Assembly: GCF_900114315.1 (NCBI RefSeq)
Contig: NZ_FOSQ01000001.1
Span: forward strand, 186,001 to 250,000
Source of the DNA: Falsiroseomonas stagni DSM 19981
GTDB lineage: Bacteria > Pseudomonadota > Alphaproteobacteria > Acetobacterales > Acetobacteraceae
Direction: 5' to 3'
DNA length: 64,000 nucleotides
Of the stretch, positions 21,580 to 38,349 are shown piece by piece. Position 1 is the first letter of the stretch. The number at the start of each line of letters is the position of its first letter. Made by a program: the position numbers and the translations under genes. The notes under the pieces were generated by a model. That model was not told the origin of the DNA. It searched no databases and saw nothing but the letters and a program-made list of their open reading frames with translations.

Positions 21580-22115
21580 GCCAGGCACTCCCGCAGCCGC
21601 AGCAACCCGCGGCGGATCCACGCCTTCACGGTGCCGAGCGGCAGGTCGAGCCGCGCCGCGATCTGGGCATGGGACAGGCCATGCACGAAGGCCAGCACGA
21701 TCCCGCGGCGGTTCCGCTCCTCCAGCCCCGAAAGGCATTCGCGCAGCCGCGCGCCCTCGGCCTCCGCCGCGATGCGGTCCAGCGCGTCGGATTCCACGGG
21801 GGTGTCGCCGAGGGTGGGGTCGTCGGTCGGGATCTCCCGCCCCCTGGCGCGGGCCAGGTCGAGGGCGGCGTAGCGGACGATGGCGGCCAGCCAGGCTTCC
21901 GCGCTGCCGCGGCTGGGGTCGAACTGGTCCGCCCGGCGGGCGATCTTCAGGAAGGCGTCCTGCAGCGCATCCGCCGCGGCGTCCCGGTCCCGCAGGATGG
22001 CATTGGCCACGCCGAACAGTCGCGTCGACTGGCGTTCATAGACCGCCCGCAAGGCGTGCCGGTCGCCCCCGGCGACGGCTGACAGCAGCGGGGAAAGGTC
22101 GGTCGCGGCGTCCAT
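21576..22115 (-). CDS. ECF RNA polymerase sigma factor (SigK-like)
   Basis: A 179-residue group IV sigma factor. Region 2: AVYERQSTRLFGVANAILR and AADALQDAFLKIARRADQFD for core binding and -10 recognition. Region 4: LSGLEERNRRGIVLAF and the HTH GLSHAQIAARLDLPLGTVKAWIRRGL for -35 recognition. The coupled RskA-type anti-sigma gene shows how it is controlled. The ATG at 22115 gives the family N-terminus; an upstream in-frame extension is not conserved. Likely targets include its own unit with DUF4394, but I cannot define its promoter motif. Confidence 0.94.
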   Translation of the reverse strand: MDAATDLSPLLSAVAGGDRHALRAVYERQSTRLFGVANAILRDRDAAADALQDAFLKIARRADQFDPSRGSAEAWLAAIVRYAALDLARARGREIPTDDPTLGDTPVESDALDRIAAEAEGARLRECLSGLEERNRRGIVLAFVHGLSHAQIAARLDLPLGTVKAWIRRGLLRLRECLA

Positions 22116-22480
22116 GCGGGCGGAGAATGCCCACGGCGCCCACCAGGGTGCAACGGGGGCATCCGGTGCCTGCGGATCGGGCAGGACTGCCGAAAGCGCG
22201 GCCAGCGCCGGGGGGCAACGGCGGCGAAAGGCCATCCGCGGGGCTGGCACGGGCCTTGCGAGACCGCGGCCCATGCCACCCTGGCCGCCCCTTCCCGCCC
22301 GTCCCGCCGCCGGCCGCCCCAGGCGCCCTGGCCGGCCGGCGCGCGCCCATGGGCTGGCCCGGGCGCGCGGCCGGTGGCGACCAACGGCCTGATCCCGTGG
22401 CCGTCGCGTCCCGCACCGGGACGCGCGGTGGGTGTCCCACACCCTGATCATCCCCGAACCGGAACCCTGGCGGAGTTGCC
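22116..22480. other. Divergent intergenic region with sigma-54 promoter
   Basis: A 365-bp gap between the ECF sigma gene (minus) and the 13-gene catabolic cluster (plus). Besides the sigma-54 promoter, annotated separately, it contains GC-rich inverted segments around 22320-22380. A candidate activator half-site pair, GCGCC-N6-GGTGC at 22136-22151, is one base off the NtrC spacing. I see no gene in it. Confidence 0.6.
22245..22259 (+). promoter_or_regulatory. Sigma-54 (RpoN) -24/-12 promoter
   Basis: TGGCACG-GGCC-TTGC matches the sigma-54 consensus TGGCACG-N4-TTGC at all eleven fixed positions, with GG and GC exactly 12 bases apart; only the last weak A/T position is G. It points toward the catabolic cluster; transcription would begin near 22271, leaving a leader of about 210 bases. 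Sigma-54 promoters need an ATP-dependent activator such as NtrC, and no activator gene is in the cluster. Confidence 0.68.
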
Positions 22481-23938
22481 ATGACCTGCCCGCAAGGCCT
22501 GCCCGCGCTGGAGCGCCTGGTGGCGCGCGAACTTGCCCAGACTGCCTTCCCGACCGCCCCCTGGGTGGCGCCCCTGGTCGCGCCCGATGGGGCGGAGGCG
22601 CTGGACTGCGCCATCATCGGTGGTGGCCAATACGGCCTGGCATTGGCCGGGCTGCTGAAACGCGAATGCGTGACGCGCATCGCCGTCTTCGATGCGGCGC
22701 GGGCGGGGATGGAAGGCCCCTGGATGAGTTTCGCGCGCATGACGATGCTGCGCACGCCGAAGGACCTGGCCGGCCCGGAATGCGGCCTGCCATCCCTGAC
22801 CTTCCGCGCCTGGTGGGAAGCCCAGCATGGGCAGGCGTCGTGGGAAGCGATGTATCGCATCCCCCGCACCGCCTGGGCCACCTACCTCACCTGGTTCCGC
22901 CGCGTCCTGGACCTGCCGGTGCGCAATGGCTGGCGGCTGCGGGAGATGCAGCCGACGGCCGATGGCACGATGATCGGGCTGCTGTTCGAAACGCCGGACG
23001 GCCCGCTGCTGCGCCACGCCCGCAGCGTGGTGATGGCGACCGGCACCGGCGGCGCCGGCGGCCATGCGATTCCCGCCCCGATCGCCCGCGCCCTGCCACC
23101 CGGCCGCGTGCTGCATGCGAATGACATCCTGGACCTCGGCGCCTTCGCCGGTGAACGGGTGGGCGTGCTGGGGGCGGGGGCGACCGCCTTCGATGTCGCG
23201 ATCGCGGCGCTGCAGGCCGGTGCGACGCGCGCGGAGGTCTGCGTGCGGCGGCCCGAATTGCCGCGCGACAATCCGCGGCGCTGGATGGAAAGCGCCGGGC
23301 ACCTGGCCCATTACGTGGACCTGCCGGATGCCGCGAAATGGGCCTATGCGACCCGGCTGCGCCAGATCGGCCAGCCGCCGCCGCAGCCCACCTTCGATGC
23401 CGCGATGGCCGAGCCCGGCTTCCGGCTGCGCACCGGCATGCCCTGGGACCAGGTGCGCTGGACGGGCGGCGAGATCATCGTCGAAGGCAATGGCAAGCGC
23501 CTGGTCTTCGACCGGCTGGTGATCGCCACCGGCTTCACCGCCGACATGGCGATGAGGTCCGAATACGCCGCGCTGTTGCCGCATGCCGCGCTGTGGCGGG
23601 ACCGCTTCACGCCGCCGGCCGAACAGGCGGATGCCAGGCTCGGCCGGCAGCCCTACCTCGACCGCTTCGGCGGCTTCACCGAAAGGCTGCCGGGGGCGGC
23701 GCCGTGGCTCGGACGGATCTTCACCATCACCAACAACGCCTCGCTCAGCCTGGGGCCCGTCGCGGCGTCGATCAGCGCGATGAAATACGTCGCGCCGCGG
23801 CTGGTGGAGGGGGTGAAACGCCGGCTGTTCCTGGACCAGCAGGAAAGCGACTGGGCCTGGTTCCTGGGCGGCGACCACGCCGAACTCGCCCCCTTCAACC
23901 TGCCCCCTTCCACCCTGCCGGAGACCGTAGCCGCATGA
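22481..23938 (+). CDS. FAD/NAD(P)-binding oxidoreductase, monooxygenase-like (first copy)
   Basis: A 485-residue flavoprotein with two Rossmann folds. The FAD site CAIIGGGQYGLALAG is at about residues 43-57, and the NAD(P) site VGVLGAGATAFDVA is at about 228-241. LVIATGFTAD is the hallmark ATG-type segment before the C-terminal part. It resembles flavin-containing or N-hydroxylating monooxygenases (SidA/PvdA-like) but is not close enough to name a substrate. It is the first gene after the sigma-54 promoter. A clear homologue is encoded later in the same cluster (28905-30368), sharing stretches such as LRTPK, GPE and RAW at matching positions. It overlaps the next start by 4 bases. Confidence 0.85.
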   Translation: MTCPQGLPALERLVARELAQTAFPTAPWVAPLVAPDGAEALDCAIIGGGQYGLALAGLLKRECVTRIAVFDAARAGMEGPWMSFARMTMLRTPKDLAGPECGLPSLTFRAWWEAQHGQASWEAMYRIPRTAWATYLTWFRRVLDLPVRNGWRLREMQPTADGTMIGLLFETPDGPLLRHARSVVMATGTGGAGGHAIPAPIARALPPGRVLHANDILDLGAFAGERVGVLGAGATAFDVAIAALQAGATRAEVCVRRPELPRDNPRRWMESAGHLAHYVDLPDAAKWAYATRLRQIGQPPPQPTFDAAMAEPGFRLRTGMPWDQVRWTGGEIIVEGNGKRLVFDRLVIATGFTADMAMRSEYAALLPHAALWRDRFTPPAEQADARLGRQPYLDRFGGFTERLPGAAPWLGRIFTITNNASLSLGPVAASISAMKYVAPRLVEGVKRRLFLDQQESDWAWFLGGDHAELAPFNLPPSTLPETVAA

Positions 23939-24438
23939 GCGACCCACGCATCATCCCCGTGAAGCCGGGAGCGGCGACGGTGGAAGCCCTGGCGCCCTTC
24001 GGCACGCTGGTGGAGGCCGGGGAGGACGGCACGCCCTTCGGCCCCGCCGATGCGCGGCTTGAACTGGGGCGCGGCACGCCGCGGCTCTACATCATGCGGC
24101 TGGTGAAGCGCCCGATGCTGGTGCGCGGCATCACGCGCCACACCCGGGTGACGCAATGCCTGGCGGCGACGATGGGGGGCGAGTGGTTCATCGGCCTGGC
24201 GCCCGCCGGCGATGCCGACATGCCCGATGCCAAGCCCGACCCGGCCGCGATCCGCATCTTCCGCATCCCCGGCGACAAGGCGCTGGCCCTGCATCGCGGC
24301 ACCTGGCATGCGGGACCGTTCTTCGAGGCTGAGACGCAGGATTTCCTGAACCTCGAACTCTCGGACACGAATGAGGTGGACCACCACACGGTGCGCCTCG
24401 ATGCCGAATTCGGCGTCGCCTTCGCGATCGAGCCGTGA
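23935..24438 (+). CDS. allA: Ureidoglycolate lyase family protein
   Basis: A 167-residue cupin-fold protein of the ureidoglycolate lyase (AllA) family, which splits ureidoglycolate into glyoxylate and urea in allantoin use. Seen here: FGTLVEAGEDG, the repeated beta strands through TRHTRVTQCLAAT, the conserved HRGTWHAGPFF loop and FLNLELSDTNEVDHHT near the end. The ATG overlaps the upstream stop, and its own stop overlaps the next start, so it is embedded in the operon. The family match is good; whether its substrate is ureidoglycolate or another ureido acid is open, since the usual allantoin genes (allantoicase, uricase) are not present in the cluster. Confidence 0.82.
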   Translation: MSDPRIIPVKPGAATVEALAPFGTLVEAGEDGTPFGPADARLELGRGTPRLYIMRLVKRPMLVRGITRHTRVTQCLAATMGGEWFIGLAPAGDADMPDAKPDPAAIRIFRIPGDKALALHRGTWHAGPFFEAETQDFLNLELSDTNEVDHHTVRLDAEFGVAFAIEP

Positions 24439-25307
24439 TGCGGGACCACGGGCGCTACGCCTATTCCGCCATCGCGCAACGGCCGGCCTGGGACTGGCCG
24501 GGCGGGAAGCGGCTCGCGGTGTTCATCGCGGTGAACCTGGAGGCCTTTCCCTTTGCGGAAGGCATGGGCATCCCGCTCGTGAATCCGCTGCCGGAGCCCG
24601 ATGTGCAGAACTACGGCTTCCGCGATTGGGGCAACCGCGTCGGCGTCTGGAACCTGCTCGATTCGCTGGACGAATACGCGCTGCCTGCCGCCGCGCTGAT
24701 GAACACCGCGATCTACGACCTCTGCCCGCCCGTCGCCGAGGCCTTCCGCGCCAGGGGCGATGAGGTGGTGGGCCATGGCCGCACCAATGCCGAACGGCAA
24801 TGCGACATGGATGAGGCGACGGAGCGCGCGATGATCGCCGCATGCCGCGCGCGCATCGCGGCGGAGGAAGGCGTGGCGCCCCGTGGCTGGATGGGCCCCT
24901 GGGTGGCGGAGACGCATGTGACGCCGGACCTGCTGGCGGAGGCGGGCTTCGACTATGTCATGGACTGGACGCATGATGACCAGCCGACGCGCCTGGTCAC
25001 GCGCGGCGCCGGGTCGCTGGTGACGGTGCCCTATTCGAAGCCGACCAACGACATCCCCATCCTGCACGCTGCGAAATGGCCGCCCGCGGATTGGGCCGAT
25101 GCGCTGATCGACCAGTTCGAGGAGCAGCGGCGCTTGTCGAAAAAATGGCCGCTGACCTTCAACCTGTCGCTGCATCCCTTCCTCGTGGGGCATGCCTTTC
25201 GCCTGAAACACCTCCGCCGCGTCTTCGCGCATATCGCGGCGGCACAGGAGGAAGTGTGGCTCTGCCGGCCTGGCGACATCGCGCGCCATGCGGCGACGGT
25301 GGTGTGA
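24435..25307 (+). CDS. Polysaccharide deacetylase-like hydrolase, PuuE (allantoinase) type
   Basis: A 290-residue NodB-fold hydrolase. Start is GTG at 24435, overlapping the upstream stop, or ATG at 24438. It has the layout of the PuuE/cyclic imide hydrolase branch: AVFIAVNLEAFPF in place of the usual TFDDGP-type motif, EVVGHGRTNAER in place of the metal-binding HTxxH, RGWMGPWVAETHVTPDLLAEAGFDY and NLSLHPFLVG near the end. PuuE enzymes open hydantoin or imide rings such as allantoin without a classical metal site. Next to a ureidoglycolate lyase this fits ring opening followed by ureido-acid cleavage; the exact ring is not known. Confidence 0.85.
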   Translation: MMRDHGRYAYSAIAQRPAWDWPGGKRLAVFIAVNLEAFPFAEGMGIPLVNPLPEPDVQNYGFRDWGNRVGVWNLLDSLDEYALPAAALMNTAIYDLCPPVAEAFRARGDEVVGHGRTNAERQCDMDEATERAMIAACRARIAAEEGVAPRGWMGPWVAETHVTPDLLAEAGFDYVMDWTHDDQPTRLVTRGAGSLVTVPYSKPTNDIPILHAAKWPPADWADALIDQFEEQRRLSKKWPLTFNLSLHPFLVGHAFRLKHLRRVFAHIAAAQEEVWLCRPGDIARHAATVV

Positions 25308-25310
25308 GGG

Positions 25311-25964
25311 ATGGATTTCGAGTGGACACTCTTCGTCGAGAGCCTGCCCGCGCTGGCGCGCGGCGCGGCGACGACGGCGGAGCTGGCCTTCGTCTCCATC
25401 TGCGGGGGGCTGGTGCTGGGGCTGATGGGCGGGCTGGCGCGCGTCTCCGGCATCGCGGCGCTGAACGCCTTCGCGCTGTTCTGCGTCACGCTGCTGCGGG
25501 GCGTGCCGCTGCTGGTGACGATGCTGTTCTTCTACTACGGCCTGCCCTCCCTGGGATTGCTGCTGGAGGCGAAGACCGTCGCGATCCTGGCGCTGTCGCT
25601 GACCAACGGCGCCTATGTGACGGAGATCGTGCGCGCCGGCATCCAGTCCATCGATCGCGGGCAGATGCGCGCGGCGCGGTCGCTCGGCATGGGGTGGGCA
25701 CTGGCGATGCGGCGGATCGTGCTGCCGCAGGCGCTGCGGCGCGTGCTGCCGCCGATCGGGAATGAGGCGATCACCCTGCTGAAGAACACGGCGCTGGTCA
25801 GCGTCATCGCCATCCCGGACCTGCTGCGGGCGGGGACGGACATCATGACCTGGCAGGCCAATACCTTCAGCCCCTTCGCGGGCGTGGCGCTGATGTACCT
25901 GATGATGACCCTGCCGCTGGTCTGGCTGGTGGCGCGGCTGGAATCCCGCTGGAGGGTGGCATGA
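25311..25964 (+). CDS. ABC transporter permease, polar amino acid type
   Basis: A 217-residue inner-membrane permease with about five spans. The cytoplasmic EAA-type coupling loop is RAARSLGMGWALAMRRIVLPQALRRVLPP in outline, and the N-terminal region FVESLPALARGAATTAEL is typical of HisM/TcyB-like permeases. The later GNEAITLLKNTALVSVIAI confirms the family. Only one permease gene is present, so it probably works as a homodimer with the ATPase and binding protein encoded at 27205 and 27990. The start lies 3 bases past the previous stop. Confidence 0.94.
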   Translation: MDFEWTLFVESLPALARGAATTAELAFVSICGGLVLGLMGGLARVSGIAALNAFALFCVTLLRGVPLLVTMLFFYYGLPSLGLLLEAKTVAILALSLTNGAYVTEIVRAGIQSIDRGQMRAARSLGMGWALAMRRIVLPQALRRVLPPIGNEAITLLKNTALVSVIAIPDLLRAGTDIMTWQANTFSPFAGVALMYLMMTLPLVWLVARLESRWRVA

Positions 25965-27208
25965 GCGCAGTGCTGTTCCGGGGTGCGACGCTGCTGCGCG
26001 GCGGCGATGACTGGGCGCCCGTCGCGGGTGTGGACCTGCTGCTGCGCGACGGCGTCGTCGCCGAGGGGCCTGTGGAGGCCGCGGCGGTCATCGACGCGTC
26101 GCACCTCCTTCTGCTGCCCGCCTTCGTCAACGCCCATACCCATTCGCCCGAAGCTCTCGCACGCGGGCGGGCGCCGATGGCGCGGCTGGATGACTGGCTC
26201 GCGGTGGAATACGCCGATGGCCAGGATGCGCTGCCCGCTTCGCGCATCCGCCAGGCCATCCTGATCAGCTGCGCGGAGGCGATCCGCGGTGGCGCGGTGC
26301 AGGTGACGGACCATTTCCGCCAGATCCCGCCGAGCGTGGAGAGCGTGGCCGCGGCGGCCAGCGCCTGGGCGGAGGGCGGCATCCGCGCGCGCGTCGCGAT
26401 GATGCTGCGCGACCTGCCCTCGCCCTCCGCCAGCTTCACGCCGCCCAGCACCGACCAGGCGCTGGCGGTGGCGGCGGCGCTGCTGCGCGATCCGCCGCCG
26501 GGCGCGACGGTCGGCCTCGGCCCCTCCGCCCCGCAGCGCTGCAGCGACGATCTGCTGCGCGGCGTGGCGCGGCTGGCGGAGCGGCACGGGGCCTTCGTGC
26601 ATCTCCATCTCTGCGAGACCGCGAAGGATGCGGTGGATTGCCGCGCCCGGGCGGGTGGCGATGATCCCGTGGCCTGGCTGGAACGCCTCGGCCTGGCGGG
26701 TTCCCATGTGGAATACGCGCATTGCGTCCATCTGAGGGATGCGGAGCTGGACCGCATGGTGGCGCGGGGCACGACCATGGTGCACAACCCGCTGGCCAAT
26801 CTTCGCCTCGGCAGCGGCATCGCGCCCGTGGCGCGCGGACTGGCCCGCGGCGTCAGGCTGCGCGTGGGATCGGACGGCCCGGGCAGCAACGATACGCAGG
26901 ACATGCTGGAGGCCGCGAAGTTCGCCATGCTGCTGCCGCGCGCCGGGCGCCCCGATGCGGAATGGCCGACGCCTGCGCAGACGCTGGAGATGGCGACGGG
27001 CGGGCATAGGCTGGTGGCGGGCGCGCGGGCGGATGTGATTGCCTTCGACCTCCGCGCCGCCGCCTTCGCTGGCGCCAAGCCCGATGAGATCGCCACGCGC
27101 CTGCTGCTGGCGGCACGCCCGCGGGACCTGACGCATGTGCTGCGGGATGGCGACTTCCTGATGCGGGACGGCGCGCTGGTGCCGCCCGCCCTGGCGGCGC
27201 TGCGATGA
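25961..27208 (+). CDS. Amidohydrolase, cytosine deaminase/TrzA-like
   Basis: A 415-residue metal-dependent hydrolase of the amidohydrolase superfamily. The metal ligands appear as [10 protein letters not shown] (His59 and His61), [11 protein letters not shown], the later EYAHCVHL, and the catalytic Asp in [31 protein letters not shown] is a strong hallmark of the ATZ/TRZ-like deaminases and dechlorinases. It probably deaminates or hydrolyses an N-heterocycle. It is placed between the ABC permease and ATPase genes with 4-base overlaps on both sides, which ties it tightly to import of the substrate. Exact substrate unknown. Confidence 0.88.
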
Positions 27209-27975
27209 GCGTCATCGCGGTCCGCAACCTGCACAAATCCTATGGCAAGACGCCCGTGCTGCGGGGCGTGGACCTGGCGGTCGCAAAGGGGGAGACGGTC
27301 TGTGTCATCGGTCCCTCCGGCAGCGGGAAGTCGACGCTGCTGCAATGCCTGAACGGCCTGGAGCCCTTTGAATCCGGGGAGGTGATCGTCGCTGGCCAGC
27401 ATATCGGTTGGGGCCGTGGCGGCGCCCGCATCCCGGAGCGCGAGATGACCTTCGCGCGCCGGCGCATCGGCATCGTCTTCCAGCAGTTCAACCTCTTCCC
27501 CCACATGTCGGCGCTGGCCAATGTCATGGAAGCGCCCGTCCAGGTGCTGAAGCGCCCGCGCGCGGTGGTAGAGGCGGAGGCGCGGGCACTGCTGGCGCGG
27601 GTCGGGCTTGCGCACAAGGCGGATGCCTACCCGGCCGACCTCTCCGGCGGGCAGCAGCAGCGCGTCGCCATCGCCCGCGCGCTCGCCATGCAGCCGGAGG
27701 TGATGCTGTTCGACGAGGTGACCTCCGCCCTCGATCCCGAGTTGGTGGGCGAAGTGCTGGCCGTGATGCGCGGCCTGGCGAAGGACGGCATGACCATGCT
27801 CGTCGTGACGCATGAGATGGGCTTCGCGCGCGAAGCGGCGGACCGCGTGATCTTCATGGATGGCGGGCTGGTGGTGGAACAGGGGCCACCCGCCGAGGTG
27901 CTGGGCCGTCCGCGGGAAGCGCGGACACGGGAATTCCTGGGCCGCGTGCTGAGGCCCGAATCGATCGAGGCATGA
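27205..27975 (+). CDS. ABC transporter ATP-binding protein, polar amino acid type
   Basis: A 256-residue ATPase. Walker A is [12 protein letters not shown] (about residues 37-48), the Q-loop lies in [14 protein letters not shown], the signature is [16 protein letters not shown], Walker B is [14 protein letters not shown] and the H-loop is [15 protein letters not shown]. These sequences match GlnQ/HisP-like energisers. It powers the importer formed with the permease at 25311 and the binding protein at 27990. It overlaps the amidohydrolase gene by 4 bases at its start. Confidence 0.96.
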
Positions 27976-27989
27976 GGGGGACTGGAACG

Positions 27990-28763
27990 ATGAACCGCAT
28001 CCGGATCACGCGCCGCGCGCTGCTGGCGACCACGCTGGCGACACCGGCGCTGGCGCAGGAGGGTGACACGCTTGCCAAGGCGCGCGCCGCCGGCGTCCTC
28101 GTCGTCGGCAATGGCGGCGCCTTCCCGCCCTTCGAGTTCATGGAGAATGGCCGCCTGACGGGCTACGACGTCGATCTCGGCGAGGAACTCGGCCGGCGCA
28201 TGGGCCTGCGCATCCAGTGGCAGGTGATCGCCTTCGCGGGGCTGATCGCGGGCCTCACCTCCGGCCGTGTGGATTGCCTGATCACGGCCATGGCCTGGAC
28301 GCCGGACCGCGCGGAACGCATCGCCTTCTCCATCCCCTACTACAAGACCGGGATCGCGGCGGGCTACCGCCCGGGGCTTGCGATCGACCGGCCGGAGGAT
28401 CTGGCGGGGCGCATCGTCGGCGTGCAGGTCGGCACGTCAGGCGAGCAGTTCGTGCGGCAGAACCACGCCAGCAGCGTGAGGGAGATCCGCGTCTACAACG
28501 AATTCCCGCTGGCCCTGCAGGATCTGGTGGTGGGGCGGATCGAGGCGGTGGTGAACACCCAGCCCGTGCTGCGCTGGAACATCGCGCGCAACACGCGCGT
28601 GCGGCTCGGCGTCTCCCCGGTCTGGGATGCGCGGGATATCGGCATCAACACGCGGCATGCGGATGTGGCGCTGATGGCGGAGATCAACCGGCACCTCGCG
28701 GCCATGCAGGCGGATGGCTTCCTGCCGGGGCTGGACCAGAAGTGGTTCGGCCAGGCCTCATGA
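27990..28763 (+). CDS. ABC transporter substrate-binding protein, polar amino acid type
   Basis: A 257-residue periplasmic binding protein. The signal peptide is RRALLATTLATPALAQ with cleavage after about residue 23; the RR pair is not followed by a full Tat motif. The mature part has GNGGAFPPFEF, YDVDLGEELGRRMG and WTPDRAERIAFSIPYYKTG, typical of the family 3 solute receptors. I chose the ATG at 27990 because it has a GAGGGGGA ribosome site upstream; an earlier ATG at 27972 overlaps the ATPase stop. A 141-bp gap follows, the longest inside the cluster. Confidence 0.93.
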   Translation: MNRIRITRRALLATTLATPALAQEGDTLAKARAAGVLVVGNGGAFPPFEFMENGRLTGYDVDLGEELGRRMGLRIQWQVIAFAGLIAGLTSGRVDCLITAMAWTPDRAERIAFSIPYYKTGIAAGYRPGLAIDRPEDLAGRIVGVQVGTSGEQFVRQNHASSVREIRVYNEFPLALQDLVVGRIEAVVNTQPVLRWNIARNTRVRLGVSPVWDARDIGINTRHADVALMAEINRHLAAMQADGFLPGLDQKWFGQAS

Positions 28764-28904
28764 CATCTTCGCGCCTGCGCGCCGCCATGATAGATTTCCA
28801 ATGTCCTGGTGAGCCGGAGAAACGGGCCTGGGCGACATGGCGTGGCGGCGTCCCGCAGGGGATGCATCGTCGCGCGCCCGTCGCCAGGAGCTGACCCGCA
28901 GGCC

Positions 28905-30368
28905 ATGGATGCGCTGCCCCCGTTCCACCTGATGCCCCTGCCGGATGCGGAAGCGCGGCTGGCTGCGCTGGCGGACCGCGTGGCGTGGGAATTATCCACG
29001 CTCGCCTATCCCGCGCGGGACTGGGTGCGGCCGCGCGGCGATGGCGTGCGGGACGTGGTGGTGGTGGGCGGCGGGCAATGCGGCCTCGCCCTGTCATTCG
29101 CGCTGCGGCGCGCGCGCGTCACGAACACCGAAGTGCTGGAGGCCGGCACGCCCGCCGGCATCTGGCTGCGCTTCGCCCGCATGCACACGCTGCGCACGCC
29201 GAAGCATGTGACGGGGCCGGAACTCGGCGTGCCGTCGCTCTCCGTGCGCGCCTGGTTCGAGGCCCGCTTTGGCGAACACGCCTGGGCTTCCCTGGCGAAG
29301 ATCCCGCGCGCGGTGTGGCAGGCCTATCTCGACTGGCTGCAAGGCATGCTGGCGCTGCCGGTGGAAGCCGGCTGGCGGGTGGGCGCGGTGACGCCGGAGG
29401 CGGATGACCTGCTTGCCGTCACCGCCGAACGGGATGATGGGATGCGGGCGCGCTGGCTCTCGCGGCATGTGGTGATGGCGACGGGGGTGGATGGCGCGGG
29501 GGCCTGGCAGGTGCCGGGGATCGTCGCGCAATCGCTGCCGGCGGATCGCTACGCCCATACCGCGCAGCCCATCGATTTCGCGGCGCTGGCGGGGCGGCGC
29601 GTGGCGGTTCTGGGTGCGGGGGCCTCGGCCTTCGACAATGCGGCGATGGCGCTGGAACATGGCGCGGCGCGGCTGGACCTGCTGGCGCGGCGGCCCCGGC
29701 TGCCGGCGGTCAATCCCTATCGCTGGATGGAGTTCGCCGGCTTCCTCAACCACTTCGCGGACCTGCCGGATGCGCTGAAGTGGCGCTTCATGCGGACCAT
29801 CTTCGCGATGAACCAGCCACCGCCGCAGGAGACATTCTCCAGATGCGCGGCGCATGCCGTCTTTCATCTGCATCTCGCGGCGCCCCTGCGGGCGCTGCGG
29901 ATGGAGGGTGACGCGATCATCCTGGAGACGCCGCGCGGCGCCGTCACGGCGGATTTCCTCATCGTCGGCACGGGGCTGGTGGTGGAGCCCGCGCTGCGGA
30001 CGGAACTCGCCGCCGCCGCGCCCCATATCGCCCGGTGGCGGGACCGCTTCACCCCGCCGGCGGGGGAGGAGGATGCCGCGCTCGGCGCCTTCCCCTACCT
30101 CACCGCCGATTTCGCCTTCACGGAACGGGTGGAGGGCAGCGCGCCCTGGCTGCGGCGGCTGCGCAGTTCGTCCTTCGCCGCCATGGCCAGCACCGCCTCC
30201 TCCGGCGGCATCTCCACCTTGCGGCCGACGGTCGACCGCATCGCGCGCGGCATCACGCGCGACCTGTTCCTGGACCAGGCGGAAGCGGACCATGCCGCGC
30301 TGGCCGCCTATGACGAGCGTGAGCTGGTCGACCTGACCCTGGCATCGGAAGGGACACGCCCATGGTGA
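28905..30368 (+). CDS. FAD/NAD(P)-binding oxidoreductase, monooxygenase-like (second copy)
   Basis: A 487-residue homologue of the cluster's first gene, with the same two Rossmann folds: VVVVGGGQCGLALSFAL near residue 45 and VAVLGAGASAFDNAAMAL near 230. Matching landmarks are FARMHTLRTPKHVTGPELG and NPYRWMEFAGFLNHF. The pair probably arose by duplication and may act as two oxygenation steps, or as a heteromer. The ATG at 28905 is preferred; the in-frame extension to 28809 overlaps non-conserved sequence. The stop overlaps the HpaB-type gene by 7 bases. Confidence 0.85.
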   Translation: MDALPPFHLMPLPDAEARLAALADRVAWELSTLAYPARDWVRPRGDGVRDVVVVGGGQCGLALSFALRRARVTNTEVLEAGTPAGIWLRFARMHTLRTPKHVTGPELGVPSLSVRAWFEARFGEHAWASLAKIPRAVWQAYLDWLQGMLALPVEAGWRVGAVTPEADDLLAVTAERDDGMRARWLSRHVVMATGVDGAGAWQVPGIVAQSLPADRYAHTAQPIDFAALAGRRVAVLGAGASAFDNAAMALEHGAARLDLLARRPRLPAVNPYRWMEFAGFLNHFADLPDALKWRFMRTIFAMNQPPPQETFSRCAAHAVFHLHLAAPLRALRMEGDAIILETPRGAVTADFLIVGTGLVVEPALRTELAAAAPHIARWRDRFTPPAGEEDAALGAFPYLTADFAFTERVEGSAPWLRRLRSSSFAAMASTASSGGISTLRPTVDRIARGITRDLFLDQAEADHAALAAYDERELVDLTLASEGTRPW

Positions 30369-31822
30369 AGGACGGCGCCGCCCATCTGCGCGGCCTGCGT
30401 GACGCGCGCACCATCTTCATCGATGGACGGCGTGTGGCGGATGTGACGACGGACCCCGCCTTCGCCGGCGCGGTGGCCTCGGCCGCGTCGCTCTACGACC
30501 TCCAGGCTGAGGATCCGGAGGGCATGACCTTCGACCTCGGCGATGGCACGCGCACGGGGCTCGCCTGGATGTTGCCCCGCAACCACGCGGAACTCGTGAA
30601 GCGCCGCGTGGCGATGGAACGCATCGCGGCGCGGAGCTGCGGGATGATGGGGCGGAGCCCCGACCACGTCGCCTCCACCTTCGTGGGCTTCATGGCCGGC
30701 CGCCACGCCTATGATTCGCGGGGTGGCGCGGCGCTGTCATCCTATTTCGAGGCAGCGCGCCGCGCCGATCACTGGATCGGCTACGTCATCATCAATCCGC
30801 AGGCCGACAAGTCCCGCCAGGCGAAGGACCAGCCCGGCGGCGACCTGGTCGCGCGGATCGTGGATGAGGATGCCGGCGGCATCACCATCCGCGGCGCCAA
30901 GATGCTGGCGACGGCGGGTGTGATGGCGAATGAGCTGATGGTCTCCGGCATCGTCGCCCTGATGCCGGGGGATGAGCCCTACGCCTTCACGGCCGTCATG
31001 CCCCTGGCGACGAAGGGCATCAAGCTGCTGTCCCGCCGCAGCTACGAGGCTGCCGTCACCTCCGTCTTCGACTATCCCCTCTCCGCCCGCTTCGACGAGA
31101 ATGATGCCGTCGTCTTCTTCGAGGATGTGAAGATCCCCTGGGACCGCGTCTTCGTGCACCGGGACCTGCGCATGATGCAGGCGCAATGGCACGAGACGCG
31201 CGCCCATGTGATGCAGAACTACCAATGCATCGTGCGGCTTTCCGTCAAGCTGCGCTTCCTGCTCGGCCTCGCGCATCGCATCGCGGAGACCAACGGCATC
31301 CTGGGCTTCCCCCAGACGCGGGAGACGCTCGGCCTGCTCGCCGCCAAGGCCAGCAGCATCGAGGCGATGGTGGTTGCCATGGAGGCGCAGGGCGAGGATT
31401 TCCACGGGGTCTTCGTGCCGGATCGGCGGCTGCTGGTCTCCGCGCAGGTGCTGGCCCAGACGATCTATCCGGAATTCATCGAGGCGATCCGCGGCCTGTC
31501 CGGCGGCGGGCTCGTCATGGTCCCATCCTCCGCCGCCGATTTCGATGGCGGGGAGGTGGAGCGCATCATCCAGGCCAGCCAGCGATCCCCGGTGGCAGGC
31601 AGCGAGGACCGGGTGAAGCTGATGAAGCTGGCCTGGGACGCCGTCGGGTCCGAATTCGGCTCGCGACACCTGCAATACGAGATGTTTTACTCAGGCCCGC
31701 AATTCGCGATCCGCGGTAACTCCTACCGCTTCCACGATTGGACGGGACCAAAGGCCATGGTGCAGGGCTTCATGGACAGCTACGGGCTTGACCGCGCCCC
31801 GGCGAAGGCGGCCGCGGAATGA
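30362..31822 (+). CDS. HpaB-family FADH2-dependent oxygenase
   Basis: A 486-residue member of the 4-hydroxyphenylacetate 3-hydroxylase large-subunit family. Features are GLRDARTIFIDGRRV at the start, YFEAARRADHWIGYVIINPQ in the middle, then FEDVKIPWDRVFVHRD, GFPQTRETLGLLAAKAS and HDWTGPKAMVQGFM. These enzymes hydroxylate phenols or N-heteroaromatics with reduced flavin supplied by a separate reductase. No reductase is in the cluster; an HpaC-like gene at 43210 is a candidate partner. It overlaps both neighbours by 4-7 bases. The substrate is not predicted by the sequence. Confidence 0.9.
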   Translation: MVKDGAAHLRGLRDARTIFIDGRRVADVTTDPAFAGAVASAASLYDLQAEDPEGMTFDLGDGTRTGLAWMLPRNHAELVKRRVAMERIAARSCGMMGRSPDHVASTFVGFMAGRHAYDSRGGAALSSYFEAARRADHWIGYVIINPQADKSRQAKDQPGGDLVARIVDEDAGGITIRGAKMLATAGVMANELMVSGIVALMPGDEPYAFTAVMPLATKGIKLLSRRSYEAAVTSVFDYPLSARFDENDAVVFFEDVKIPWDRVFVHRDLRMMQAQWHETRAHVMQNYQCIVRLSVKLRFLLGLAHRIAETNGILGFPQTRETLGLLAAKASSIEAMVVAMEAQGEDFHGVFVPDRRLLVSAQVLAQTIYPEFIEAIRGLSGGGLVMVPSSAADFDGGEVERIIQASQRSPVAGSEDRVKLMKLAWDAVGSEFGSRHLQYEMFYSGPQFAIRGNSYRFHDWTGPKAMVQGFMDSYGLDRAPAKAAAE

Positions 31823-32991
31823 CGCCCGACCGGATCAGGGCCTCCGCCTTCGTCGCGCATGGCGATGTGCGGGTGGAAGGCGCGGCGGAAGGCCCGCTCT
31901 CGGGCCTCACCTTCGCGGTGAAGGACCTGTTCGACGTGGCGGGCACCATCAGCGGCTGGGGCAACCCGGACCGCGTGGAGCAGACGCCGCCTTCCGCCAC
32001 CACGGCCAGCGCGCTGCTGCCGGCACTCGCCGCCGGCGCGACGATGATCGGCAAGACGCATACGGATGAGATCGCCTGCGGGCTGTTCGGGGAGAACCCG
32101 CATTACGGCGCGCCGATCAACCCGGTGGCGCCGGACCGCGTGCCGGGGGGGTCCTCGTCCGGCTCCGTCGTCGCCGTGGCGGGGGGGTTCTGCGACTTCG
32201 CCTTCGGCACGGATACGGGCGGCTCCGTCCGCGTGCCATCCTCCTTCTGCGGCGTCTTCGGCATCCGGACCTCGCATGGCCGCGTCTCCACCGCCGGGCT
32301 GATGCCGATGGCGCCGAGCATCGACACGGTCGGCTGGTTCGCCCGCGATGCGGGGCTGTTGCGGAAGGTGGGGTCGCTGTTCTTCGGCAGCGCGCCTTCC
32401 GTGACGCCACGGCTGCTCTTTGCCGAGGACGCCTTCGAGATTCCCGTGCCGCTGCTGGGCGAGGTGATGCGCGACGCCGCGTCGAAGCTCGGGCCGATGG
32501 ACAGCGTGCGGGCCTATGGCGATTGGGGGCACGGCTATTGGCTGGAGACCTTCAAGCCGCTGCAACTCGGCGAGTTGTGGGCGACCCATGGCAGCTGGGC
32601 GACGGCGCCGGGACGGCGGCTGAGCCCCGCGGTGCGGGACCGCATCGCGCTCGCCTCCACCGTGCCGATGGCCGACATCGCCGCGGCCTGGGTGCGGCGG
32701 GAGAAGCTGTCCGAGCATATCCGCGCGCTGCTCGGCCAGGACGGCATCCTGGTGATCCCGACGGCCCATGACCTGCCGCCGCTCCGCAACGCGCCGGTCT
32801 CCGCGCAATTCGCCTTCCGCGACAACACGCTGGCGCTGACCTGCATCGCCAGCCTCTGCCGCCTGCCGCAGGTCAACATCCCGGCCGGCACGCTGGATGG
32901 CATTCCCTTCGGCCTGTCGCTGGTCGCGGCGCCCTACCAGGACGCGATGCTGCTGGCGGCGGCGGAGGCCCTGGCGCCGGCGCTGGCGTGA
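31819..32991 (+). CDS. Amidase (amidase signature family)
   Basis: A 390-residue amidase signature hydrolase. The catalytic Lys is in LTFAVKDLFDV (Lys35), the cis-Ser in VPGGSSSGSVVAV, and the nucleophilic Ser in GTDTGGSVRVPSSFCG. It is shorter than the usual 450-500 residues because the segment after the core is compact. It should release ammonia from an amide intermediate, in keeping with a pathway that strips nitrogen. The ATG overlaps the HpaB stop and the stop overlaps the GTG of the next gene. Substrate unknown. Confidence 0.93.
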   Translation: MTPDRIRASAFVAHGDVRVEGAAEGPLSGLTFAVKDLFDVAGTISGWGNPDRVEQTPPSATTASALLPALAAGATMIGKTHTDEIACGLFGENPHYGAPINPVAPDRVPGGSSSGSVVAVAGGFCDFAFGTDTGGSVRVPSSFCGVFGIRTSHGRVSTAGLMPMAPSIDTVGWFARDAGLLRKVGSLFFGSAPSVTPRLLFAEDAFEIPVPLLGEVMRDAASKLGPMDSVRAYGDWGHGYWLETFKPLQLGELWATHGSWATAPGRRLSPAVRDRIALASTVPMADIAAAWVRREKLSEHIRALLGQDGILVIPTAHDLPPLRNAPVSAQFAFRDNTLALTCIASLCRLPQVNIPAGTLDGIPFGLSLVAAPYQDAMLLAAAEALAPALA

Positions 32992-34475
32992 CGACGCTGC
33001 TGGTCACCGGCGGGCTGGTCTGGGACGGCGGCACGGCGGCGCCGCGGGACCTGCTGCTGCGGGAAGGCCGCATCGCCGCGGTGCTGGCGCCGGGGGAGGG
33101 GCCTGACGACGGGCCGCGCTTCGATGCGCGGGACCGGCTGGTGCTGCCGGGCCTGGTCAACGCGCATACCCATGGGCACGCCACCCTCATGAAAGGGGTG
33201 GCGGATCGGTGGATGCTGGAATCCTCGCTGACCAACGGCGCCTGGATGGGCGGCCGCCGGGACCGCGATATCATCCGGCTGTCCACCCTGCTTGGCGCGG
33301 TGGAGATGCTCGAGGCCGGCTGTACCGCCTGCTACGACCTGTTCTTCGAATTCCCCGGCCCCAGCGCGGAAGGGCTGGCGACGGTCGCCGCGGCCTATGC
33401 GGAGGCAGGCATGCGGGCGGTGGTCGCGCCGATGGTGGCGGACCGCGCGCTGTTCGAGATCCTGCCAGGCTTCCTCGACACGCTGCCGGACGATCTGCGC
33501 GAACAGGCCGCCGCCTTCCGGCTGGCGCCAGCCGCGCAGACGCTGGCGGCGCTGCGCGATTCCTTCTCAGGTGTCACGCCACCGGATGGCATCCGCTTCG
33601 CGCTGGCGCCGACCATCCCGCATCACTGCACCGATGATTTCGTCACGGGCTGCCGTGACCTGGCGGCCGCGCGCGGCCTGCGGCTGCACATGCACATCGC
33701 GGAGTCCAGGCTGCAGGCGCTGATCGCGCGCAAGATGTGGGGCGCCGGGCCGGTGCACCACATCGCCCGCCTCGGCCTGCTGGGGCCGCATTTCACCGCG
33801 GCCCATGCGGTGTGGCTGGAGGCGGCGGAGCTGGACCTGCTGGCCGCGCATGGCGCCACCGTGGCGCATATGCCGGCGAGCAACATGCGGCTCGGCGCGG
33901 GTGTGGCGAGCATCAGCGCGATGCGCGCGCGGGGCATCACGGTCGGCCTCGGCACCGATGGCTGCAATTCCGCGGACAGCCTGGACATGGCGGAGGCGAT
34001 GCGTCTGGCCTCCCACCTCTCCCGCCTTCGCGACGTGCCGCGCGATGAATGGCTGGCGGCTGCCGATGTGTTGCGCATGGCGACGGAAGGCGGCGCCGCG
34101 GTGCTGGGGATCGAGGGCGGGCGCATCGCGCCCGGCGCGCCCGCGGACCTCGCCCTGCTCGACCTCGGCCACCGCGCCTTCGTGCCGCTGCATGACGCAG
34201 CAAACCAGGCCGTGACCTGCAACACCGCCGGCAGCGTCAGGGAGGTCTTCGTCGGCGGGCGCCAGGTGGTGGCGCAGGGCCGCTGCCTTGCACCCGTTGC
34301 CGCGACGCTGCGCGACCGCGCGCGGGATGCGCTGGCGGCGTTGATGGAACGCCTGGCGCCATCGCGCGCGCTGGCGGCACGGCTGGAGCCGCATGTCGTC
34401 GCCTATGCCGAGCGGGAGGGGCGTGCCGCGCTGCCCTTCGCGCGGAAAATCCCCGTGGAGAGCAGCCTCGCATGA
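32988..34475 (+). CDS. Amidohydrolase, TrzA/AtzA-like (second in the cluster)
   Basis: A 495-residue hydrolase starting at GTG. Metal-site segments: GLVNAHTHGHATLMKGV, LRLHMHIAES, FTAAHAVWLE and GLGTDGCNSADSLDMAEAM. HMPASNMRLGAGVASI is the ATZ/TRZ hallmark. It is longer than the other amidohydrolase in the cluster (415 residues) and only distantly related to it, so the two likely act on different intermediates, one as a deaminase and one as a ring or side-chain hydrolase. Start and stop overlap both neighbours by 4 bases. Confidence 0.9.
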   Translation: MTTLLVTGGLVWDGGTAAPRDLLLREGRIAAVLAPGEGPDDGPRFDARDRLVLPGLVNAHTHGHATLMKGVADRWMLESSLTNGAWMGGRRDRDIIRLSTLLGAVEMLEAGCTACYDLFFEFPGPSAEGLATVAAAYAEAGMRAVVAPMVADRALFEILPGFLDTLPDDLREQAAAFRLAPAAQTLAALRDSFSGVTPPDGIRFALAPTIPHHCTDDFVTGCRDLAAARGLRLHMHIAESRLQALIARKMWGAGPVHHIARLGLLGPHFTAAHAVWLEAAELDLLAAHGATVAHMPASNMRLGAGVASISAMRARGITVGLGTDGCNSADSLDMAEAMRLASHLSRLRDVPRDEWLAAADVLRMATEGGAAVLGIEGGRIAPGAPADLALLDLGHRAFVPLHDAANQAVTCNTAGSVREVFVGGRQVVAQGRCLAPVAATLRDRARDALAALMERLAPSRALAARLEPHVVAYAEREGRAALPFARKIPVESSLA

Positions 34476-35455
34476 CATCGCCGCTTCGCCTGACCATCGG
34501 CGTCTCCGATTGCGACCGTGCCCGCGCGCTGGCGGAAGGCCGCGTGCCGATCGCTTGTGTCGAGGCAGCGACGACCGTCATGCCGCTGCAGCCGCTATTC
34601 AACCTGCAGATGACCACCCATGAATTCGATTGCTGCGAATTCCCGATCGCCACCTGGCTGCGGCATTTCGACCGGCCGGTGCAGGATTACGTCGGCATCC
34701 CCGTCTTCCCCTCCCGCCATTTCCGCTTCTCCTGCGTCTATGTGAACAAGGCGAAGGGGCTGACGAAGCCCGCGGACCTCGCGGGCAGGCGCGTCGGCGC
34801 CATGGTGTGGGACATGGCCGCCGCGGTCTGGCTGCGCGGCATCTTCGCGGAGTACTACGGCCTTCCCGTCGCCGCGCCGATCTATGTCAATGCGGGGCTG
34901 AACGCGGCTCGCGCGGGGGAGGACCATCCGCAGGACTATCCGCCCGGCGTCACCATCGAACATGTCACGGACAGGTCGCTGTCGGCGATGCTGGAGAGCG
35001 GCGAGATCGATGCGATCTACACCGCCCGCGCGCCCGACAGCTTTTTCGAGTCACCCGACAAGGTCGGACGGCTCTTCGCCGATCCGATGGCGGCGGAGAT
35101 CGACTATTTCCAGCGTTCCGGCATCTTCCCGCCGATGCACCTGGTGGCAGTGAAGAAGCCCATCGCCGAGGCGAATCCCTGGCTGCCACGCGCGCTCTAC
35201 GACGCCTTCGCCGAATCGCAGCGCCAGTCGCGGCTGCGGCTGCATGACAGCGCGACGCTCGCCTTCGGCCTGCCCTTCCTGGTGCAACACCTTGAGGAGA
35301 CGGAGCGCGTGTTGGGCGCGGATTTCTGGTCCACCGGCTTCGCCGCCAACCGCCACGTCTTCGCGACGCTGATCCGTTACATGCGGGATGAGGGACTGCT
35401 GAAGCGCGACCTGGCGCCGGAGGATCTGTTCCCTGCTTCCCTGCTGGAAACCTGA
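34472..35455 (+). CDS. 4,5-dihydroxyphthalate decarboxylase-like protein
   Basis: A 327-residue protein with the two-lobed periplasmic-binding-protein fold but no signal peptide, as in the 4,5-dihydroxyphthalate decarboxylase family. Segments: LTIGVSDCDRARAL at the start, FDCCEFPIATWLRHF, PVFPSRHFRFSCVYVN and LAGRRVGAMVWDMAAAVW, then the family's MHLVAVKKPI. It may decarboxylate a hydroxylated ring acid formed by the HpaB-type oxygenase. No other dihydroxyphthalate pathway gene is nearby, so the family name should not be read as its substrate. It overlaps the amidohydrolase stop. Confidence 0.82.
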   Translation: MTSPLRLTIGVSDCDRARALAEGRVPIACVEAATTVMPLQPLFNLQMTTHEFDCCEFPIATWLRHFDRPVQDYVGIPVFPSRHFRFSCVYVNKAKGLTKPADLAGRRVGAMVWDMAAAVWLRGIFAEYYGLPVAAPIYVNAGLNAARAGEDHPQDYPPGVTIEHVTDRSLSAMLESGEIDAIYTARAPDSFFESPDKVGRLFADPMAAEIDYFQRSGIFPPMHLVAVKKPIAEANPWLPRALYDAFAESQRQSRLRLHDSATLAFGLPFLVQHLEETERVLGADFWSTGFAANRHVFATLIRYMRDEGLLKRDLAPEDLFPASLLET

Positions 35456-35458
35456 CCG

Positions 35459-36469
35459 ATGGTCACGACCGATGACCGCGCGACGCGCGTGCGCGAATCC
35501 GCCCAGAAGTTCCGCGCGCCCTTCACGCTTGAGCCCTCGCTGGCACTGTATTGCCCGCAGGACAATGTCGACAGCCTCGCGCATCCCCGCATCAGGGCGT
35601 GGTTCGACTTCGTCGGCCGGGACTACAACCCTGTGCTGCCGGATGCGCCGCGCCGCGTGCTGCTGCTGCTGCCTTGTACGCGAACGAAGCCCTACATCCT
35701 GTCCACCGAGCACAGGCGCATCAATGCCGCGTTGATCGCGGCTGGCTTCGTGCCGATGGCGCCGGCCGATCCGACTCTGCTGGCGTTGCGGGAGGAGGGG
35801 GAGAGCGAGGCGTTGTTCAGCCTGGCGCCGCTGCTGCATCCCGATGGCATCGTGGTGCATCGCGCGGTCATCAGCGAACCGCTGGGCCTGGTGCCCTATG
35901 AGCACATGCTGGCCTATCCCGGCGGCGTTTCGCCGGCCGTGCTCTATGACGATCCCGGCCTGTTCGAGGAGCGGGGCAATGCGGTCTCCCCCTGGCGGGC
36001 TGACCATACCGCCGTCCGGGTCAGCGCCACGCGGTGGAAGTGGGGTCCCGCCGAGAAGCGCGCCTATGTCGTGATGCACAACGAGATGGCACGGGTGGTG
36101 GCGGAGGCCTTGGCGCGGTTCGGCGGCGTCTATACGCGGCGGATCAGCTGGGTGGCGCCGGGCCTCACGCATCGCAGCTTCGTCGTGGCGAAAGGTGAGC
36201 GCGCCGCCCATGGCATCGTCGCGCAGCGCCAGGTGGGGGCGGAGCGCTTGCCGCTGGTGGGCGCGAATGACCTGCTGCCGGCGGATCTGCGCCTGACGGC
36301 CTTGCCGACGCGGGACCAGTGCCAGGATGGGCTGTCGCGCCTGGCGGTCCGCCTGGGCAAGACCCCCGCGGAGGCTGCCGGCCATTTCGGCCGCGGTGGC
36401 GGTGACGCGACGCCCTTGGCGCTGCCCGAACTGCTCGCGGACCTACTGACGGCGCTCCGCGCCCATTGA
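35459..36469 (+). CDS. Stand-alone archaeosine-synthase-like (DUF5591) protein
   Basis: A 336-residue protein that carries the signature PC-x3-KPY-x2-S-x2-H exactly: PCTRTKPYILSTEH, residues 72-85. This motif defines archaeosine synthase ArcS and related archaeal proteins, where the enzyme adds lysine to the nitrile of preQ0-modified tRNA. The N-terminal part (1-60) has a CPQDNVDSLAHPRIRAWF segment of the same domain. No tRNA-ribosyltransferase or PUA domain is present. Being the last gene of a bacterial degradation cluster suggests an acyl, amidine or nitrile chemistry on a small molecule rather than on tRNA; that is inference. It starts 3 bases after the previous stop and is followed by two hairpins. 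Confidence 0.75.
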   Translation: MVTTDDRATRVRESAQKFRAPFTLEPSLALYCPQDNVDSLAHPRIRAWFDFVGRDYNPVLPDAPRRVLLLLPCTRTKPYILSTEHRRINAALIAAGFVPMAPADPTLLALREEGESEALFSLAPLLHPDGIVVHRAVISEPLGLVPYEHMLAYPGGVSPAVLYDDPGLFEERGNAVSPWRADHTAVRVSATRWKWGPAEKRAYVVMHNEMARVVAEALARFGGVYTRRISWVAPGLTHRSFVVAKGERAAHGIVAQRQVGAERLPLVGANDLLPADLRLTALPTRDQCQDGLSRLAVRLGKTPAEAAGHFGRGGGDATPLALPELLADLLTALRAH

Positions 36470-36530: not shown

Positions 36531-38039
36531 TCACGTCTCCAGCATCCGCCGCAGCAGTTCCACGTCTTCCGCGAAGGCGCTGTCCGCCTGCATCAGCTCC
36601 GCCACGCGGCTGACCGCGTGCATCACCGTGGTGTGGTCCCGTCCGCCGAAGCGGCGGCCGATTTCCGGCAGGGACCGGCTGGTGAGTTGCTTGGCCAGGT
36701 ACATCGCCACCTGTCGCGGCCGGGCCACGTTGCGGGCCCGGCGGGGGGAGGACATGTCGGTCAGGCGGATGTTGTAGTGTTCCGCGACGCGCTTCTGGAT
36801 TTCCTCGATCGTCACGCGGCGGTCATGGGCGCGGAGGATGTCGTGCAGCACTTCCTGCGCGCCTTCCAGCGTCACGGGCCGGCCGAACAGGTTCGCGTGG
36901 GCGATCAGGCGGTTCAGCGCGCCTTCCAGTTCACGCACGTTGGACGTGATCTTGTGGGCGAGGAATTCCATCACCTTGGGCGGCACCGGCACGCCCTGGC
37001 TCTGTGCCTTGGCCTGCAGGATGGAGATGCGGAGTTCGTAGGTGGTGGCGTGCAGGTCGGCGACCATGCCGCAGCCGAGACGGGTGCGGAGGCGATCCTC
37101 GATGCCGGAGAGATCGGAGGGCGACTTGTCCGCGCTCACGATGATCTGCTTGCCGGCGTCCACCAGGGCGTTGAAGGTGTGGAAGAATTCTTCCTGCGTG
37201 TTGTCCTTGCCGATCAGGAACTGCAGGTCGTCGATCAGCAGCACGTCGACGCTGCGGAGGCTTTCCTTGAATTCCATCGTGGATTGGGACCGCAGTGCCG
37301 CGATGAAGCGGTACATGAACTTCTCGGCCGACATGTAGGCGACGGAGAGGGGTGGGCGGCCCTCGGCGGCGCCGATCTCCCGGATCGCCCAGGCGGCGGC
37401 GTGCATCAGGTGGGTCTTGCCCAGCCCGACGCCGCCATAGAGGAACAGCGGGTTGAAGCCCGGGCTGGCCGGCCTTTCCGCCACGCGGCGGGCGCAGGCA
37501 TAGGCGAATTCGTTGGGCTTGCCGACGACGAAGGTATCGAAGGTGAAGCGCGGGTCGAGCGGCGCGGTCCAGTCGCTGCGCGGGTCGGCGGGGCGCAGCT
37601 CGGCGGCTGGCGCGGCGCGGCCGAGTGGCTCCGCCAGGCCGGCGGGCGCCTCGGCGGGTTCGGGGGCGCGGATCGTGGCCGGGCGCGGCGCCTGGCGGGG
37701 CGCCTCCGCCACGGCGGGAGTCGCAGCGGGTGCGGGCTCGGCGGCGCGGGGTTCGGGCGTCACGCGGAAATCGACGCGGCGGATGGCGGGGATCTCGGCC
37801 TGCCAGAGCGCCCGCAGGCGGTCGCCGTAATGCCCGCGGACCCAGTCGCGCAGGAAACGGGTCGGCAAAAGAACGATCGCTTCCTCGCCCTGGATGGCGG
37901 ACAGCGTCATCTGGCGGAGCCAGGTGCGATACTCGACCTCGCCCACTTCCTCCCGCAGCCGGCCGCGGATGCGCGCCCAGACCTCCGCCAGCTGTGCCGG
38001 GGGGGAGGACGGAGACGACGGACCGACCGCATTCTCCAT
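36531..38039 (-). CDS. dnaA: Chromosomal replication initiator DnaA
   Basis: About 502 residues from the ATG at 38039; a GTG at 38048 would add three. Domain I (AQLAEVWARIRGRLREEVG) is followed by a long Pro/Ala-rich domain II (about 85-155). The AAA+ domain has Walker A GGVGLGKTHLMHAA, Walker B VLLIDDLQFLIG and sensor II VRELEGALNRL. Domain IV carries the DnaA-box reader GGRDHTTVMHAVSRV. It binds oriC and loads helicase. The alphaproteobacterial neighbour rpsT lies upstream. I see no cluster of DnaA boxes in the flanks, so oriC is probably elsewhere. Confidence 0.98.
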   Translation of the reverse strand: MENAVGPSSPSSPPAQLAEVWARIRGRLREEVGEVEYRTWLRQMTLSAIQGEEAIVLLPTRFLRDWVRGHYGDRLRALWQAEIPAIRRVDFRVTPEPRAAEPAPAATPAVAEAPRQAPRPATIRAPEPAEAPAGLAEPLGRAAPAAELRPADPRSDWTAPLDPRFTFDTFVVGKPNEFAYACARRVAERPASPGFNPLFLYGGVGLGKTHLMHAAAWAIREIGAAEGRPPLSVAYMSAEKFMYRFIAALRSQSTMEFKESLRSVDVLLIDDLQFLIGKDNTQEEFFHTFNALVDAGKQIIVSADKSPSDLSGIEDRLRTRLGCGMVADLHATTYELRISILQAKAQSQGVPVPPKVMEFLAHKITSNVRELEGALNRLIAHANLFGRPVTLEGAQEVLHDILRAHDRRVTIEEIQKRVAEHYNIRLTDMSSPRRARNVARPRQVAMYLAKQLTSRSLPEIGRRFGGRDHTTVMHAVSRVAELMQADSAFAEDVELLRRMLET

Positions 38040-38349
38040 AGGACGCACCTGCCAACCTCATGGGCCCTGACGGGCAATGTCGATGTGAACTGCGTGCTGC
38101 GGAGGACCCGCCATGGGGGGAGCAGTGGCGCGCTTTCCGGGGGGATGCACCCTGCTTCCCGGAACCTACAGCGCCACACTTGGCCCACGCAAATGATTAC
38201 TGCACCCTGACCAAGTCATGATCGTGAGGGTGAAAGTATTCAGTTTGCAGCACAGAAATGAGACCACGCAGAATCGCCCGACAGCCGGCGCCATTCATGC
38301 GCGCCGCCGGGTTGGATTGAACGAGGCTTGGAGAAGAACGCCGCAGTGT
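38040..38349. promoter_or_regulatory. dnaA upstream region
   Basis: About 310 bp between dnaA and the rpsT terminator, with no gene. It is relatively AT-rich at 38190-38275. An imperfect inverted repeat, CACCCTGAC (38203-38211) and GTGAGGGTG (38224-38232), 8 of 9 pairs, may be an operator. One GAATC at 38271-38275 is a possible CcrM (GANTC) methylation site, which in Caulobacter affects dnaA expression. I find no TTATCCACA-type DnaA box here. Confidence 0.45.

Follow-up and report, generated by a model that had tools for sequence, protein, structure and literature searches.

ArcS, the archaeosine synthase, attaches an amine to the preQ0 nitrile; the enzyme is mainly euryarchaeal, and proteins built on the same core occur in archaeal tRNA modification and, judging by homology, also in the modification of phage DNA. 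Here we analyze a stand-alone ArcS-core (DUF5591) protein, hereafter the target, encoded at the end of a catabolic operon in Falsiroseomonas stagni DSM 19981, within a stretch of 64,000 nucleotides (contig NZ_FOSQ01000001.1, positions 186,001 to 250,000) that as a whole is denoted the window. The target is probably a free-standing catabolic enzyme whose ArcS-core fold acts on a small substrate of the purine, deazapurine or pyrimidine type, and not on tRNA or DNA. Literature searches for a catabolic ArcS-domain protein returned no paper.

According to the available part of the report (PMC11298593), the ArcS of T. kodakarensis does not use the free preQ0 base and needs a 5′-phosphate for efficiency. 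In Vibrio phage nt-1, an ArcS homologue is encoded among the preQ0-synthesis genes that serve DNA modification, the phage DNA contains dPreQ0, dADG and dG+, and the authors suggest an amidohydrolase reaction for some phage ArcS (PMC6884629, available part). With the nt-1 homologue, an ArcS domain lacking RNA-binding parts has been described before. The first-pass annotation of the window had noted an ArcS-type motif standing alone, which is true of the target and not unique to it, as the nt-1 protein (AGN30171.1, 226 amino acids) is likewise a stand-alone DUF5591 protein, although its signature is altered.

The known proteins resemble the target in different parts. Archaeosine synthase (TgtA2, archaeosine synthase alpha subunit; NF040592 / PF17884) has in common with it the signature PC-x3-KPY-x2-S-x2-H, the DUF5591 core and a second block (SEP/SSPL-VP plus Y-D), whereas the target lacks the TGT and PUA domains, has an insertion of ~30-40 residues past the signature and extra conserved N- and C-terminal blocks, and belongs to a bacterial catabolic operon. 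The crystal structure of AF0587 (2q07), the title of which assigns no function, leaves 200 of the 336 target residues outside the aligned core. The DUF5591-like proteins of the Sulfolobus viruses STSV1 and STSV2 (185-187 amino acids; genes at L068:1899-2456 and L070:1899-2462) stand alone and have the exact signature and a SEP-x4-VP block, but they are viral, and the 4.2-kb stretches seen contain no catabolic neighbours. Genes for TGT-DUF5591 fusions are found on haloarchaeal plasmids (L066:1519-3483 and 4197-6207; L067:1474-3477); the L066 fusion adjoins a second TGT gene and is near an AAA-domain gene, and the L067 fusion is upstream of a DEAD/DEAH helicase gene. As a guess, these plasmid loci may be DNA modification systems.

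Homology, fold and signature of the target

Sequence comparison supports homology of the target to the ArcS core domain. The Pfam DUF5591 profile (PF17884) matches residues 63-92 above its cut-off (1.6e-7, 31.8 bits vs 26), and 48 of 48 aligned family members are matched by the same profile (E up to 1). The only PDB sequence matched by the family profile is AF0587 (E 0.0022); a further block aligns collinearly (SEPLGLVPYE vs SSPLVVPRE, YDDP vs YDTP) but alone is not significant. A profile-profile comparison with six DUF5591 sequences (the two haloarchaeal TGT fusions, phage nt-1, STSV1, STSV2 and a piece of AF0587) spans residues 40-166 (97.2%, E 3.9e-11). In a tree rooted on these six sequences and built from a short alignment, all 48 members group in a single clade (support 0.90), apart from the outgroup. 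The predicted model has a fold in common with DUF5591 and the ArcS core: Foldseek matches it to 2q07 (TM-scores 0.24/0.30, root-mean-square deviation 5.2) and to the nt-1 homologue, which ranks first in the viral fold library (TM-scores 0.41/0.58, root-mean-square deviation 5.4). The kinship proposed in the first-pass annotation thus held in profile search, fold and phylogeny; neither an unrelated fold nor a placement within an enzyme family of known role was found when looked for.

We take the pattern PC-x3-KPY-x2-S-x2-H to be the ArcS signature; a literature search for the motif string together with archaeosine gave no result. Residues 72-85 of the target (PCTRTKPYILSTEH) fit it exactly, as first annotated, and this is the single match across the six frames of the window (5e-6 expected from residue frequencies). 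The exact pattern is kept in 50/50 homologous open reading frames (ORFs), which were chosen with a pattern including PC-x3-KP[YF] and of which each of 50 loci gave one. In alignment A2, built from match coordinates independently of the motif, none of the seven signature residues varies in any of the 48 rows. AF0587, the two haloarchaeal fusions and the STSV1/STSV2 proteins have the pattern as well; in the nt-1 homologue (LCTTTRPYENSRKW) it is altered to LC-x3-RPY-x2-S-x2-W.

The invariant polar residues of the family are C73, K77, Y79, S82, E84, H85, R135, E140, D164, D165, H207, N208, H238 and R239, and numerous invariant residues are located outside the ArcS core. The gene is under purifying selection, with synonymous divergence (Ks) of 0.37-0.44 and nonsynonymous divergence (Ka) of 0.047-0.051 against three close relatives. 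With Pfam at E up to 1, DUF5591 is the only domain found in the target: neither the TGT-like and PUA domains of the ArcS architecture nor a DNA-binding domain was detected, in agreement with the initial description of a protein without tRNA-binding domains.

Distribution and linkage to catabolic genes

The Falsiroseomonas genome has one DUF5591 match. In a sample of the order, 7 of 299 genomes match, leaving 6 carriers (own genome included) once the L008 match, a chance hit, is dropped; the class and phylum samples have 3/385 and 1/398 carriers, respectively, each count including the own genome. Species genomes of GTDB yielded 48 loci, mostly from Alphaproteobacteria and otherwise from Actinomycetota and Chloroflexota, where many carriers are metagenome-assembled genomes. 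The single carrier plasmid in PLSDB, from Rhizobium sp. ACO-34A, has a cluster of the same kind. An orthologue (at least 70% identity) of the decarboxylase-like protein encoded next to the target is present in exactly the 6 carriers among the 299 genomes, the next best among the matches listed being at 39%, and an HpaB orthologue at the same threshold is present in 7 (the 6 carriers and G218, there on a 4.3-kb contig). These co-occurrences are not independent events, because 5 of the 6 carriers belong to one genus.

Genes for the oxidation, deamination and ring opening of heterocycles recur beside the target gene. In 50 loci (the window, L017-L064 and L011), gene clusters were defined by all-against-all comparison and families named from representatives. 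The most frequent were deaminase-like (n = 37), decarboxylase-like (n = 32), HpaB (n = 31), FAD enzyme (n = 30) and amidase (n = 27), followed by PuuE-like (n = 21), aldehyde dehydrogenase (n = 17), aminotransferase (n = 14) and HDAC-like (n = 10). The decarboxylase-like gene adjoins the target homologue on the same strand, within 300 bp, in 30/50 loci, and the FAD gene is upstream in 17/50. Of the 50 loci, 44 have at least one gene from the deaminase-like, allantoinase-like, hydantoinase-like, AtzD-family, xanthine-dehydrogenase-like or other amidohydrolase clusters. The neighbour families in the window and at the other loci bear out the degradative setting first assigned to the gene.

L011 (1-20000, genome G593) contains a dense region that looks like one for purine and pyrimidine degradation, with urate oxidase, xanthine/uracil permease, allantoicase, a PuuE-OHCU decarboxylase fusion and a Mo-hydroxylase, and has AtzD/barbiturase-family, hydantoinase-like and isochorismatase genes around the target homologue; an AtzD-family gene is also found in L050. 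The HDAC-like deacetylase gene (L035-L038, L040, L043, L049, L062-L064) is mostly accompanied by class III aminotransferase or aldehyde dehydrogenase genes, a polyamine-type branch.

QueC and TGT were surveyed in 35 of 49 carriers (the own genome and 48 loci), some of these genomes being incomplete, so that QueC may be hidden. Full-length QueC is present in 14/35, including the own genome; the other 21 have partial weak matches only (n = 19) or none (n = 2). A TGT match is found in 34/35, one in part, and the own genome has TGT. As 21 of 35 carriers are without full-length QueC, the target gene seems to be independent of cellular preQ0 synthesis.

Candidate function and alternatives

We infer that the target is an enzyme, in which the signature loop, which follows the first core strand, and the conserved SEPxxxVPY, YDDPGLF and LTHRSF stretches would jointly line a pocket. 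It is possible, by analogy with the addition of an amine to the preQ0 nitrile by ArcS, that the target forms or cleaves a C-N bond at the carbon of an exocyclic nitrile, amidine or amide group. Ring breakdown of the product could then fall to the amidase, the deaminases, the HpaB-type monooxygenase and the decarboxylase-like protein. The plain ArcS reaction is disfavoured because of the carriers without full-length QueC and because T. kodakarensis ArcS rejects the free preQ0 base (PMC11298593, available part). A fold that modifies RNA seems to have been recruited to act on a small molecule. If so, the ArcS-core fold would also serve the catabolism of a free metabolite, in a bacterial family across three phyla, and the finding points to an uncharacterised N-heterocycle degradation pathway. 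As a stand-alone protein with a confident model, the target is suited to studying the ArcS-core mechanism.

A more specific assignment, as a nitrile- or amidine-handling enzyme of a bacterial 7-deazapurine degradation pathway, is distinctly unlikely. Candidate substrates would be preQ0, 7-carboxy-7-deazaguanine, queuine breakdown products and pyrrolopyrimidine antibiotics. The cyano group would be converted to an amidine or amide, the amidase would yield the acid and the dihydroxyphthalate-decarboxylase-like protein would remove the carboxyl group, with deamination, HpaB-type oxidation and allantoinase-like ring opening as later steps. Such a route would mean that an archaeal tRNA-modification core has been turned into a catabolic enzyme.

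Several observations weigh against a catabolic ArcS-core enzyme. T. kodakarensis ArcS, as noted above, does not accept the free preQ0 base and requires a 5′-phosphate for efficiency (PMC11298593, available part). A QueC match over the Pfam cut-off is present in 30/35 genomes, of which 14 were counted as real; the 16 weak matches were taken as probable other ATP-pyrophosphatase members because of their short partial coverage (E 1e-5 to 3e-4). The figure of 44/50 loci with such ring genes has no random-locus control and includes several broad families, and none of these genes is found in the other 6 loci (two of them with at most 12 kb of sequence). HpaB, decarboxylase-like and amidase genes were not seen in the available stretch of the Actinomycetota and Chloroflexota loci, which have instead hydantoinase-like, isochorismatase, DUF1989, aldehyde dehydrogenase or HDAC-like genes. 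The direct Pfam match covers 30 residues at positions 63-92 only, the comparison with other DUF5591 domains reaches 40-166, and beyond this the match is structural. The Foldseek TM-scores are low, with no match under E 0.001 in either fold library, and 2q07 was itself deposited as of unknown function.

The alternatives differ from the favoured reading in the reaction, partly share its setting, and are not exclusive of it. Many neighbours are C-N bond hydrolases, numerous invariant positions fall beyond the ArcS core and an amidohydrolase role has been suggested for some phage ArcS (PMC6884629, available part), all of which would suit a hydrolase that opens a ring or splits an amide or amidine with no nitrile link, the ArcS fold being a mere scaffold. 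However, the operons already contain several hydrolases for such steps and the ArcS signature itself is invariant, and we regard such a hydrolase as unlikely. Quite improbable is a nucleosidase or base-releasing enzyme with a core like that of uracil-DNA glycosylase, which would cleave the N-glycosidic bond of nucleosides possibly taken up by the operon and deliver the free base to the deaminases; the uracil-DNA glycosylase superfamily did not rank above unrelated folds in the fold-match list and gave no sequence match. The operon position may equally suit a sensor, and catalysis is itself deduced, so a pathway protein that binds a ligand or regulates, with no enzymatic role, has to be considered; it is very improbable, as the invariant polar residues resemble an active site and the domain search found nothing that binds DNA. 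A true archaeosine-type or DNA-modification enzyme adjoining the operon by chance would agree with the fold and motif, with the full-length QueC and TGT of the own genome and with the dG+ and stand-alone ArcS homologue of phage nt-1 (PMC6884629, available part), but is barely credible given the missed NCBIfam ArcS equivalog cut-offs (NF040592, 30.9 vs 440 bits; NF053620, 25.2 vs 600 bits), the absent TGT and PUA domains, the minority of carriers with full-length QueC and the linkage to catabolic genes at loci from three phyla.

The gene cluster in the window

The target gene is the last of six same-strand genes (28809-36469), the end of a degradation operon as originally described; four junctions overlap by 4-7 bases and the last is a 3-bp gap. 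The decarboxylase-like protein has no obvious signal peptide by eye. No member of the radical-SAM family, that of the ArcS partner RaSEA, was found among the neighbour proteins scanned, and no genome search for RaSEA was made.

Table 1. Positions in the window of the target, its signature and the genes of the cluster
Feature	Position	Strand	Evidence or remark
Stand-alone ArcS-core (DUF5591) protein, 336 amino acids	35459..36469	+	ORF
PC-x3-KPY-x2-S-x2-H signature, residues 72-85 of target	35672..35713	+	Exact match, conserved in homologues
4,5-Dihydroxyphthalate-decarboxylase-like protein, immediate upstream partner	34472..35455	+	phmmer to 9jp7, E 7.2e-58, residues 4-327
Amidohydrolase, 8-oxoguanine deaminase / MTA-SAH deaminase / atrazine chlorohydrolase kind	32988..34475	+	Below NCBIfam equivalog cut-offs shown
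Amidase-signature amidase	31819..32991	+	PF01425 2.2e-56; NF006169 over its cut-off
HpaB-family flavin-dependent monooxygenase	30362..31822	+	Library matches; orthologue counts
FAD/NAD(P)-dependent oxidoreductase, start uncertain	28809..30368	+	PF13738, PF13434
ABC transporter solute-binding protein, family 3	27972..28763	+	
ABC transporter ATPase	27205..27975	+	
Second deaminase-like amidohydrolase	25961..27208	+	
ABC transporter permease	25311..25964	+	PF00528
PuuE-allantoinase-like hydrolase, polysaccharide-deacetylase kind	24435..25307	+	TIGR03212 1.6e-25, below its cut-off; PuuE 3cl6 1.4e-18
Ureidoglycolate-lyase-like protein, start uncertain	23902..24438	+	PF04115 1.6e-7, over its cut-off
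Second FAD/NAD(P)-dependent oxidoreductase, possible first cluster gene	22481..23938	+	

Downstream, the catabolic operon abuts a core replication gene, dnaA (36531-38048, - strand), which is convergent and lies 61 bp past the target gene. At the other end, genes for a sigma-70-family factor and an RskA-like anti-sigma protein (20884-22451, - strand) are divergent from the cluster start and are a possible regulator. Elsewhere in the window, an ORF at 10648-11895 (- strand) has a long Gly/Pro repeat tail (GGGPGGGPGSGPGG...).
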